Shown: in pieces, positions 6,289 to 10,341 of the stretch
Numbering within the stretch: position 1 is the stretch's first letter
How the letters are laid out: the number at the start of each line of letters is the position of its first letter
Assembly (NCBI GenBank): GCA_019429445.1
Contig: JAHYIW010000015.1
Location: 1 to 64,000 of the forward strand
Direction: 5' to 3'
Source of the DNA: Desulfuromonadaceae bacterium
Lineage (GTDB): Bacteria; Desulfobacterota; Desulfuromonadia; Desulfuromonadales; JAHYIW01
Length of the DNA: 64,000 nt
Translations under genes and position numbers: made by a program
Notes under the pieces: model-generated
The model's database searches: none
What the model saw: only the letters and a program-made list of their open reading frames with translations
Told to the model about the DNA's origin: nothing

Positions 6289-6297
6289 TGATATAAT
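6289..6297 (+). promoter_or_regulatory. extended -10 promoter element upstream of the CxxC-repeat gene
   Basis: TGATATAAT matches the extended -10 consensus TGnTATAAT exactly. No convincing -35 is seen 17 bases upstream, as is common for extended -10 promoters. It lies about 80 bases before the start codon at 6375. Confidence 0.5.
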
Positions 6298-6374
6298 CTA
6301 ATCAGGGAGTGGGTGTTTTTAAACCTTTGAATCAGCAATGGCACAACGAAGAGGGGCAAGAAAGGAGCATTGTC

Positions 6375-6722
6375 ATGACAGATCGATTCACCGAGGCGAC
6401 GAGTGAGCTTCAAGAAAAATCGGCGTTTGCGTGTTCGTCCTGTGGAACCGAGCATCGGCTTCACGACCGCTTCAGCGAAGCGTCCGTCGAGCTGCAAGAG
6501 CGATCGGCGTTTGTGTGTCGCAGCTGCGGAACCAGGAACACGGTCCATGATCGATTCACCGTGGCAACCGCCGAGCTGCAAGGGAAGTCTGCGTTTGTGT
6601 GTGTGTCCTGCGGTGCCAACAACACCGTGCATGACCAATATAGTGAGGCGAGCGCCGAAGAACAGGACAAATCGGCTTTCGTGTGTGTGAGTTGCGGTGC
6701 GCCGCACGCCTTGAAGCACTGA
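6375..6722 (+). CDS. four-repeat CxxC protein, unknown function
   Basis: 115 residues built almost wholly from four tandem 28-residue units at residues 3-30, 31-58, 59-86 and 87-114 (84-bp DNA repeats from 6381). The consensus is DRFxEAxxELQxKSAFVCxSCG plus NTVH. Each unit has an amphipathic helix-like half and one CxxC knuckle: CSSC (20/23), CRSC (48/51), CVSC (76/79) and CVSC (104/107). One CxxC per unit suggests two units pair to hold a zinc or similar metal, or that each is a redox-active pair. No signal peptide or membrane segment. AAGGAG at 6361-6366 supports ATG 6375. It is a monocistronic gene with its own promoter. No family recognised. Confidence 0.8.
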   Translation: MTDRFTEATSELQEKSAFACSSCGTEHRLHDRFSEASVELQERSAFVCRSCGTRNTVHDRFTVATAELQGKSAFVCVSCGANNTVHDQYSEASAEEQDKSAFVCVSCGAPHALKH

Positions 6723-6891: not shown

Positions 6892-9800
6892 TTAATCTGC
6901 TTCGCCAGAAACCGTTGTCCCCACCGGCTTTAACAACTCCAAAAGGTCCTCGGCACTCATCCCCGGCAACTCCTCCGCCTGATCCCGCGGCTGGAAAACC
7001 CCTCTTGCCAAAGCGCCTTTCTTCTCCTGGAGTTGCAAAATCTTCTCTTCAACCGTGCCACTGGCAACCAGCTTGTAGACGAAAACCGGTTTCTCCTGAC
7101 CGATGCGGTGCGCCCGGTCAGTCGCTTGATTCTCCACCGCCGGATTCCACCAGGGATCGTAATGAATGACCGTATCGGCGGCAGTCAGGTTGAGTCCTAC
7201 ACCGCCGGCCTTGAGGCTGATCAGGAAGAGCGGCACGTCTCCATTCTGAAAGGTGGCAATCGCTGCGTCGCGCTTGCGGGTGCGACCGGTCAGTTTGCTA
7301 TAGCTGATAGCGCTGGCGTTCAGTTCATCCTCAATCAGCCTGAGCATGGACGTGAACTGGGAGAAGATGAGGATCTTGCGCCCCTCCGCCAGCAGCTCCG
7401 TGACCATCTCCATCAACAGCTCCAGCTTGGCGGAATGCTTGACGCTGCGCGCACTTTCGAGCTTCACCAGCCGGGGGTCGCAGCAGACCTGCCGCAATTT
7501 TAGCAGGGCGTCGAGAATCTGGATATGACTGCGGTTCATCCCTTGCGTTTGCAGTAATTTGTCGATCCGCACGGTCATGGCGATCCGCAGCGTTTCGTAA
7601 AGTTTGGCTTGTGCCCCGTTCAGCTCGACCTCGCGTACTATCAGCGTTTTGGATGGCAATTCCTGTACGACTTCCCCCTTGTCACGGCGCAAGATAAATG
7701 GAACCAGGCGCTTTTGCAGCAGCTGTTGCCGTTCATGGTCGCGGTGTTTCTCAATCGGGGTGCGAAAGAGTTTATTGAATTGCTGCTGATCACCAAGGAA
7801 ACCGGGCATCAGAAAATGAAAGAGCGACCAGAGCTCACCGAGATGGTTCTCCAGCGGGGTGCCGGTGAGGCAGAGGCGATGGCTGGCTTTGATTTCGCAC
7901 GCGGCCTGAGCGGCTTTCGCATTCGGGTTCTTGATCGCCTGGGCTTCATCGAGGATCAGGCTGTGATAGTCACGCTTGAGGTGTTGTTTCAGATCACGGT
8001 TGAGCAGCGTATAACTGGTAATGATCAGATCGTAGTCGTCCAACCGGTCGAAATGCACGTTACGGTTGAGACCGTGCAACGCCAGTGTTTTGAGCTCGGG
8101 GGTGAAGCGCGCGGCTTCACGTTGCCAGTTACTGATGACGCTGGTCGGGGCAACGATCAGGGCGGGGCGATCAAGCCGCCCCGCCTCTTTTTCACGTTGC
8201 AGATGAGCCAGTGCCTGAATGGTTTTGCCCAGCCCCATATCGTCGGCGAGAATACCATTAAAGCTGTATTCACGTAAAAACTGGAGCCACGAGAGCCCCT
8301 GGCGCTGATAGTTGCGTAGCTCGGCATTGAGGCCCACGGGCGGGTCGAGGAGTTCAATTCCTTTAAAATTGCGCATTTTTTCCGCCAGTTGGCGAAGTTT
8401 TTTGCCCCCTTGCCAGTCCAGCCGCTGGCCGCCGACCGCCAACATGTCTTCGAGGTCGAGCAAACCGTGGGCCTGGGGGCGGGGGAGTTTCAGCTGTCCG
8501 TCGTTATTGAGTTGCGGGTCTTGAAAGAGTTCGACCAACGTGGTGACGACCGGTTCCAGTACCGAGGCGGGAACTTCCAGCCAGTTATTGCCGCCCAGAT
8601 GGTACATCAGGGACTGTTCCGTTGCATTACTCTCAAGCCACTGTGTCAACAGCGGCAGCAACGGGAATTTTTGACCATTATGCTCAATATTCAAGCCGAT
8701 CTCGAACCAACCGATGTCACCATCATCGATATCCGCCTGAAGGGTCGACACGGTTTCGAAAGTGAGTTGAAAGCTGTCATCGATCTCGACCTTCCAGCCC
8801 TCGTTCTCCAGCACGGGAATATCGTCAATCAGTTGCCGCCAAGCCAGCGCTGACGCTGCCAGGGTTTCCGTGGCGAAATAAAAATCATCTTCGCCCTGCT
8901 CACAAAGCAGTGGCGGTGCCGGGCACAGATCATGGCGGACGAGGGTGTCGTACGCATCCTTTTCGATTCGAGGATGACAGGTGATGCTCCAGTCTTCATC
9001 CTGATGGCGAATGAGACGGGAACCATTTTCCGCTGACTGCAAGGGGGGGACGCTGATCGGTCCATAAGTGAAGCGCAGCCGGGCCAGATGGTGGCGACCG
9101 CCGGTCGGGCCGATCGCGGAGCGCAGGATCAAGGTCGGAACGGGGGGGTGCTCCCAACACTTTATCTTTATTTCAATGGGCAGCGGAATGGTCTCTGGCG
9201 GAAGTTTTTCCAGCAGGAAATAACTGAGTCCCCTTAACTGTTCGGCGGCAACCGGGGGGAGCTTGTGCAGTGAATGATAGAGCGCCGCCGGGAGCGGCTG
9301 GTCAATGATCCCGCACTGGTGGGTTACGGGATCAAGGTACCAGGGCGGAGTCGTCGGAATCGGTACCCAGGCGTGGCCAATACCGTCAAGGTTGATATCG
9401 AGCTGGGTTTTATCCTGATCATTTTTATGCCAGCGAAAAGTGGCGGTCCGGTTGCGGCCACAACGCAAAGGCGGGTTTTCAGTCGATTGAAAAAAGCAGC
9501 GGCCACTTTGTAAAAGGCGCTTGAGTACCAGCACTCCGGTATCACCGTGCAGGGTGGGCAATGTCTGCGTAAAGACGTTTTGGGTCAGCAACTGGGCGAT
9601 TTCAACATCAAGCGGTGCGATTTCAGCGGGAGTGTAGTAATGGTATTGTCTTGCTTGCGCCAGAGGGTAACTGGATGTTTTCCCCCACCCCCCTCTTTTG
9701 AGACGACGGCTCTTGAACGTCTGCACGGAAATGGCCTGAGAGGATTCGCGCCCAAGGAGTTGCAGCAGATAAAGCAGGCAAGGTTCGCCCGGTGCAGCAT

Positions 9801-10194
9801 CCTGGGAGGCCTGCTCATTTTGCAGTCGCTGCACGGTTTCTTCTTGCCAGCGTTGTAAAGACGAGTGTCCAGCGTCCGTTTCGGATGCGGGATCAGTGAT
9901 CTGGTTGCGCAGTTCGAGCCACTCCAGCAAGGCGGCGACCACATGTTTGCAATTGAAGCTGACCGGACAGGAACAATCGCCCACGAACCGGTCGTGATTG
10001 GTGGGTGGTGGAAAAAAGATTTCCTGCTGATAAAGATTTCGGCCACTCCCCGCGACTTCGGCAAAGAGGACCTGCCCGATTTCATCCCACTCCAGTGACT
10101 CAACCCGGCCTGCCGCTTGATAACTTCGTCCCCGACCGAAATAGGACGCGCCACAGGTGATCAGGATTTCATTTCGTGTTAAATTGAAAGGCAT
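6892..10194 (-). CDS. SWIM zinc-finger SNF2-family helicase
   Basis: 1100-residue Swi2/Snf2 ATPase. The N-terminus has a SWIM zinc finger (GDCSCPVSFNCKHV: C74, C76, C82, H84). A long middle region follows, with the SNF2 motor in the C-terminal 480 residues: LADDMGLGKTIQAL (Walker A, about residue 650), LILDEAQAIKN (DEAQ box), LTGTPLENHLGELWSL, ILIFSQFTSML, SLKAGGVGLNLT and DRAHRIGQ. Bacterial proteins of this architecture (HepA/RapA-like group) probably remodel nucleic acid-protein complexes; the target is unknown. No clear ribosome-binding site before ATG 10194. It lies downstream of tRNA-Phe on the same strand but is separated by a terminator. Confidence 0.92.
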   Translation of the reverse strand: MPFNLTRNEILITCGASYFGRGRSYQAAGRVESLEWDEIGQVLFAEVAGSGRNLYQQEIFFPPPTNHDRFVGDCSCPVSFNCKHVVAALLEWLELRNQITDPASETDAGHSSLQRWQEETVQRLQNEQASQDAAPGEPCLLYLLQLLGRESSQAISVQTFKSRRLKRGGWGKTSSYPLAQARQYHYYTPAEIAPLDVEIAQLLTQNVFTQTLPTLHGDTGVLVLKRLLQSGRCFFQSTENPPLRCGRNRTATFRWHKNDQDKTQLDINLDGIGHAWVPIPTTPPWYLDPVTHQCGIIDQPLPAALYHSLHKLPPVAAEQLRGLSYFLLEKLPPETIPLPIEIKIKCWEHPPVPTLILRSAIGPTGGRHHLARLRFTYGPISVPPLQSAENGSRLIRHQDEDWSITCHPRIEKDAYDTLVRHDLCPAPPLLCEQGEDDFYFATETLAASALAWRQLIDDIPVLENEGWKVEIDDSFQLTFETVSTLQADIDDGDIGWFEIGLNIEHNGQKFPLLPLLTQWLESNATEQSLMYHLGGNNWLEVPASVLEPVVTTLVELFQDPQLNNDGQLKLPRPQAHGLLDLEDMLAVGGQRLDWQGGKKLRQLAEKMRNFKGIELLDPPVGLNAELRNYQRQGLSWLQFLREYSFNGILADDMGLGKTIQALAHLQREKEAGRLDRPALIVAPTSVISNWQREAARFTPELKTLALHGLNRNVHFDRLDDYDLIITSYTLLNRDLKQHLKRDYHSLILDEAQAIKNPNAKAAQAACEIKASHRLCLTGTPLENHLGELWSLFHFLMPGFLGDQQQFNKLFRTPIEKHRDHERQQLLQKRLVPFILRRDKGEVVQELPSKTLIVREVELNGAQAKLYETLRIAMTVRIDKLLQTQGMNRSHIQILDALLKLRQVCCDPRLVKLESARSVKHSAKLELLMEMVTELLAEGRKILIFSQFTSMLRLIEDELNASAISYSKLTGRTRKRDAAIATFQNGDVPLFLISLKAGGVGLNLTAADTVIHYDPWWNPAVENQATDRAHRIGQEKPVFVYKLVASGTVEEKILQLQEKKGALARGVFQPRDQAEELPGMSAEDLLELLKPVGTTVSGEAD

Positions 10195-10265: not shown

Positions 10266-10341
<76 letters not shown>

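Follow-up and report, generated by a model that had tools for sequence, protein, structure and literature searches.

The four-unit gene and its surroundings

Within the window (the whole 64,000-nucleotide stretch of a Desulfuromonadaceae contig that was analyzed), open reading frame analysis places the coding sequence of a 115-residue protein at positions 6375–6722 of the forward strand, stop codon included (ATG at 6375, TGA at 6720–6722). The assignment is backed by homologs and by an ortholog of 97% identity, likewise with four units, in one genome of the same genus, that of the sister species (G001). The protein is built from four units of 28 residues (84 bp), each with a single CxxC, at residues 20, 48, 76 and 104, and SAFxCxxCG closes the helix-like stretch of every unit. 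As delimited by unit alignment and unit profile matches, all on the forward strand, unit 1 covers residues 1–28 (6375–6458, CxxC at 6432–6443), unit 2 residues 29–56 (6459–6542, CxxC at 6516–6527), unit 3 residues 57–84 (6543–6626, CxxC at 6600–6611) and unit 4 residues 85–112 (6627–6710, CxxC at 6684–6695). When the protein is compared with itself shifted by 28 residues, 53 of 87 positions agree, whereas 20,000 shuffles averaged 5.9 matches and never exceeded 18. An earlier note on this DNA had described four near-identical 28-residue CxxC units; the count, the 84-bp length and the single CxxC per unit all hold, but the units share only 14–18 of 28 residues pairwise (50–64%) and 45–58 of 84 bases (54–69%), and "near-identical" overstates their similarity. 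The same note envisaged that unit number varies through repeat recombination, a proposal that is not supported, because the DNA repeats have diverged, Tandem Repeats Finder reports no array for the gene, and both members of the genus have exactly four units.

Units 1–3 resemble the first unit of two-unit relatives (position-specific log-ratios +7.9 to +10.2), while unit 4 weakly resembles the second (-2.4). Mean BLOSUM scores had hinted at an (AB)(AB) origin through duplication of a two-unit ancestor, which the position-specific log-ratios, giving the order A-A-A-B, do not bear out.

The gene sits between uvrD/pcrA and a helicase gene and is overlapped by an antisense open reading frame of 179 residues. 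The helicase gene, named by eye as SNF2-type, occupies 6892–10194 on the reverse strand, between the four-unit gene and a tRNA-Phe gene (10266–10341). In the sister species tRNA-Phe directly follows the CxxC gene, so that the helicase gene represents a gain or loss beside the tRNA. Across the family loci no partner gene recurs near the CxxC genes, and the neighbors therefore give no reading of function. Some one-unit genes, at four loci, adjoin a 95-residue coiled-coil-like protein and a PRC-barrel-like protein (named by eye), perhaps forming a stress-gene cluster.

Promoter and ribosome binding site

The earlier note had credited the gene with its own extended -10 promoter and an AAGGAG, and both are indeed present on the forward strand, the extended -10 element TGATATAAT at 6289–6297 and the Shine-Dalgarno sequence AAGGAG at 6362–6367, and both are kept in the sister species. 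Of 39 family genes, 32 are preceded by a TGnTATAAT-like extended -10, where dinucleotide shuffles predict 4.2 and nearby control genes show the element in 30 of 130 cases (Fisher p 4e-11); AAGGAG within 18 nt of the start was likewise found for 32 of the 39, as opposed to 14 of the 130 controls, whose start-site calls are crude. Since promoter and ribosome site are conserved amid unrelated neighborhoods, the gene appears to be autonomous and expressed; it is a real gene that, judged by these signals, looks well expressed.

A conserved leader structure was considered and rejected, the mean z over all leaders being only -0.9 and the window leader having no hairpin. Strong hairpins do occur upstream of the ribosome site in some relatives (G013, G123b); in the leaders of some two-unit genes, at four loci, such hairpins are of unrelated sequence. 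Five loci carrying one-unit genes with tails other than CC have in common a promoter spacer, between -35 and -10, that resembles GGTCATTTATG and is a possible operator.

An order-restricted family with one, two or four units

A profile of the single unit recovered an uncatalogued family that occurs in 33 of the 136 genomes searched from the order Desulfuromonadales, but neither in 141 genomes from the rest of the class nor in 378 sampled outside it; a longer profile of the one-unit form gave the same limits. The plasmids, phages and viral contigs searched yielded no family match, and a mobile or phage origin was therefore rejected. The window protein's own genome holds no true paralog, the sole other match having an E-value of 0.285. 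The window protein itself gives four unit-profile matches (E 7e-15 to 4e-13) and combines them with the extended -10 and the AAGGAG of this DRFTEA-SAF-CxxC family; because its units are included in the profile, independent support comes from the single-protein search. Judged from these searches, the window protein is the longest known form of the family.

We read 41 open reading frames of the family: two four-unit (those of the window and of the sister species, G000 and G001), 15 two-unit (64–78 residues), 23 one-unit and one decayed copy. None encodes a three-unit protein, and the intact forms have two, four or eight cysteines, never six. Copy number is four in both species of the genus but takes the values one, two or four across the order. 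Among the one-unit frames, 13 end in CxxC-x15-CC and 10 have other tails, and seven of these 10 contain just two cysteines, plus histidines. In the alignments all four cysteines of the two-unit proteins are invariant, as are C24, C27, C43 and C44 of the full one-unit type-A forms, and the helical segments DRFTEA and EKSAF are conserved in the family. At seven further loci of the same order there are zinc-ribbon relatives that lack the N-terminal unit and end in CxxC-x15-CC or CxxC-x15-HC, and in remote relatives histidine takes the place of one residue of the last cysteine pair (HCG). Histidine is an accepted zinc ligand, and a CxxC-x15-CC/HC ligand set is typical of zinc sites. In the decayed copy (G048) one cysteine is gone (FIRGSC) and the frame leaves the family pattern past the knuckle; from its sequence this copy looks like a pseudogene.

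Pairwise NG86 estimates gave dN/dS well below 1 where dS could be estimated, as in G019a/G033a (dN 0.03, dS 2.1), G014/G030a (0.17 and 1.9) and G027/G123a (0.04 and 0.49). Less clear are G012/G074 (0.42 vs 1.09) and the two four-unit genes, G000/G001 (0.011 vs 0.026), a pair that says little on selection because it differs by just five bases. Most pair comparisons of relatives thus indicate purifying selection.

Relationship to known protein families

The earlier note recognized no known family in the unit, and this stands: searches of Pfam, NCBIfam, PHROGs and PDB return partial, generic zinc-knuckle matches only, and a search of the literature gave no match to the unit sequence. The best of these generic library matches are zinc ribbons and knuckles. 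The window protein does pass the whole-protein gathering cut-offs of CoiA_N, Vps36-NZF-N, Zn_ribbon_10 and zf-Sec23_Sec24, each through a partial profile match. A two-unit homolog, however, stays below the cut-off for CoiA_N (20.4 vs 26.3) and Zn_ribbon_10 (18.1 vs 24.2), and the other two are not among its listed matches, for which reason we tentatively read the four passes as repeated cysteine knuckles, the likeness lying in partially matched CxxC knuckle residues summed over the repeats.

The nearest systems are the C(P)XCG micro-proteins of Haloferax such as HVO_0758 and HVO_2753, which are very small, stand-alone, lineage-restricted proteins with two or four CxxCG-type motifs (PMC11241148, PMC10716476, PMC6562870). 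The window protein, with four CxxCG motifs in 115 residues, resembles HVO_2753 in motif number. The Haloferax proteins differ in being archaeal and in giving no significant family match: the window protein's scores fall below the NCBIfam cut-offs for HVO_A0556 (the best, 31.9 vs 65 bits), HVO_0649 (18.5 vs 70) and HVO_2753 (13.6 vs 80). In the present family, moreover, each motif belongs to a repeated unit that carries a helix of its own N-terminal to it. The DksA/TraR-type C4 zinc finger (TIGR02419, phrog_54) is alike in being a small C4 zinc protein in which a helix leads into a CxxC knuckle, and the weak match of the two-unit homolog spans helix and knuckle. It differs in spacing and second knuckle and in its coiled-coil domain, which the present family lacks, and both the window protein (18.1 bits) and the two-unit relative (20.3 bits) score far below the TIGR02419 cut-off of 59.7. 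The Rad50 zinc hook, which shows that a zinc can be shared between chains by two elements with one CxxC each (PMC5093744), offers an analogy of mechanism only: the hook lies at the apex of the long coiled coil of an SMC-type ATPase, and searches of Pfam, NCBIfam and PDB with the 115-residue stand-alone protein found no Rad50 match and no sequence relation. On present comparisons the family is thus uncatalogued but belongs to a kind already known, that of small CxxC zinc-finger-like proteins.

A proposed mechanism and its alternatives

We consider it on balance probable that the window protein is the four-unit member of a lineage-restricted small zinc-ribbon-like family, with paired half-sites, acting as a small zinc-stabilized binding adaptor or regulator. 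This reading builds on what was observed of the gene, its family and the unit counts, on the conservation of promoter and ribosome site, and on purifying selection among relatives; from these we infer that the window protein would bind zinc, pair its units and have a binding function. In each unit a short amphipathic helix (DRFTEAxxELQEK) would lead into a beta-hairpin knuckle whose single CxxC would contribute two of the four cysteines that hold a zinc. Two- and four-unit proteins would join such half-sites within the same chain, one zinc per pair, and in the one-unit form the half-site would pair with the C-terminal CC. The window protein could then form at most two Zn(Cys)4 sites, the simplest pairing being units 1 and 2 and units 3 and 4. 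With the fold stabilized by zinc, the repeated helix faces would bind a protein or nucleic-acid partner, and a constitutive-type promoter of its own would yield large amounts of this adaptor or regulator.

The pairing between units suggested in the earlier note gains indirect support from the relatives, which are either two-unit or one-unit with CxxC-x15-CC: the second cysteine pair of that one-unit form and the lack of three-unit forms both argue for units that each supply a half-site and pair inside one chain. AlphaFold models, among them those of the two-unit relative, place a helix and short strands around each CxxC with low confidence (mean pLDDT 47 and 53), too weak to show sites or establish zinc geometry, and in the Haloferax work AlphaFold drew zinc pockets even with the ligands removed (PMC11241148). 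Many Haloferax C(P)XCG proteins of less than 70 residues bind one zinc via two such motifs, yet HVO_2753 binds only one zinc with four (PMC11241148), so that two zinc sites in the window protein cannot be assumed; and the seven relatives with only two cysteines imply that a Cys4 site is not universal unless these proteins form dimers or use histidine ligands.

The same cysteines invite other explanations. If each CxxC instead cycled between dithiol and disulfide, the units would work independently of one another, buffering redox state or shuttling electrons, and one CxxC per unit, together with the retention of a single CxxC in some relatives, would suit such independent pairs. We regard a thiol-disulfide redox protein as unlikely, given that the protein is short and matches no thioredoxin-like family in Pfam or NCBIfam, that a knuckle CxxCG is characteristic of metal sites, and that the CC ending of the four-cysteine one-unit form and the HC ending of remote relatives fit metal ligands better than redox pairs. 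An abundant, metallothionein-like buffer or chaperone, storing or passing zinc or detoxifying soft metals, would accord with eight cysteines and six histidines in 115 residues and with strong-looking expression signals. It seems a still weaker candidate, as 7% cysteine is low for a metallothionein, the DRFTEA and EKSAF helices are more conserved than metal storage requires, and no metal-resistance or transport gene recurs in the family neighborhoods.

Comparably improbable is a zinc-hook-like assembly, in which CxxC units of different molecules would share zinc and unit number would set the valency of the assembly. The Rad50 precedent for inter-chain sharing (PMC5093744) and the existence of relatives with a single CxxC speak for it, whereas a single chain of a two- or four-unit form can provide all the ligands that zinc needs, and neither coiled-coil arms nor an ATPase partner is seen. 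Finally, a short frame without a database family, overlapped by an antisense frame, might be a non-functional chance repeat between uvrD/pcrA and the helicase gene; we reject this as extremely improbable in view of homologs from 33 genomes that share its promoter, ribosome site and cysteine pattern, the periodicity at lag 28, and a dN that for several pairs lies far under dS.

Implications for the family and its hosts

If the zinc-ribbon-like reading holds, a biological role can be suggested only by analogy with the stand-alone zinc-finger micro-proteins of Haloferax, where 12 of 16 deletion mutants have phenotypes, among them effects on stress, biofilm and swarming (PMC6562870). A bolder proposal, which we hold to be possible but doubtful, is that the unit is a modular half-zinc-site whose copy number (one, two or four) sets the zinc sites or binding faces of a small regulator within a promoter-defined, Desulfuromonadales-specific set, the single-unit forms completing their site by dimerizing or through appended ligands. 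Small proteins that bind zinc are common, but their annotation is poor and they often escape notice, and because unit copy number changes between lineages here, the rule that two CxxC units make one zinc site is directly testable across the one-, two- and four-unit members. The conservation of promoter and ribosome site in unrelated neighborhoods suggests that these proteins have an autonomous role in the bacteria that carry them.
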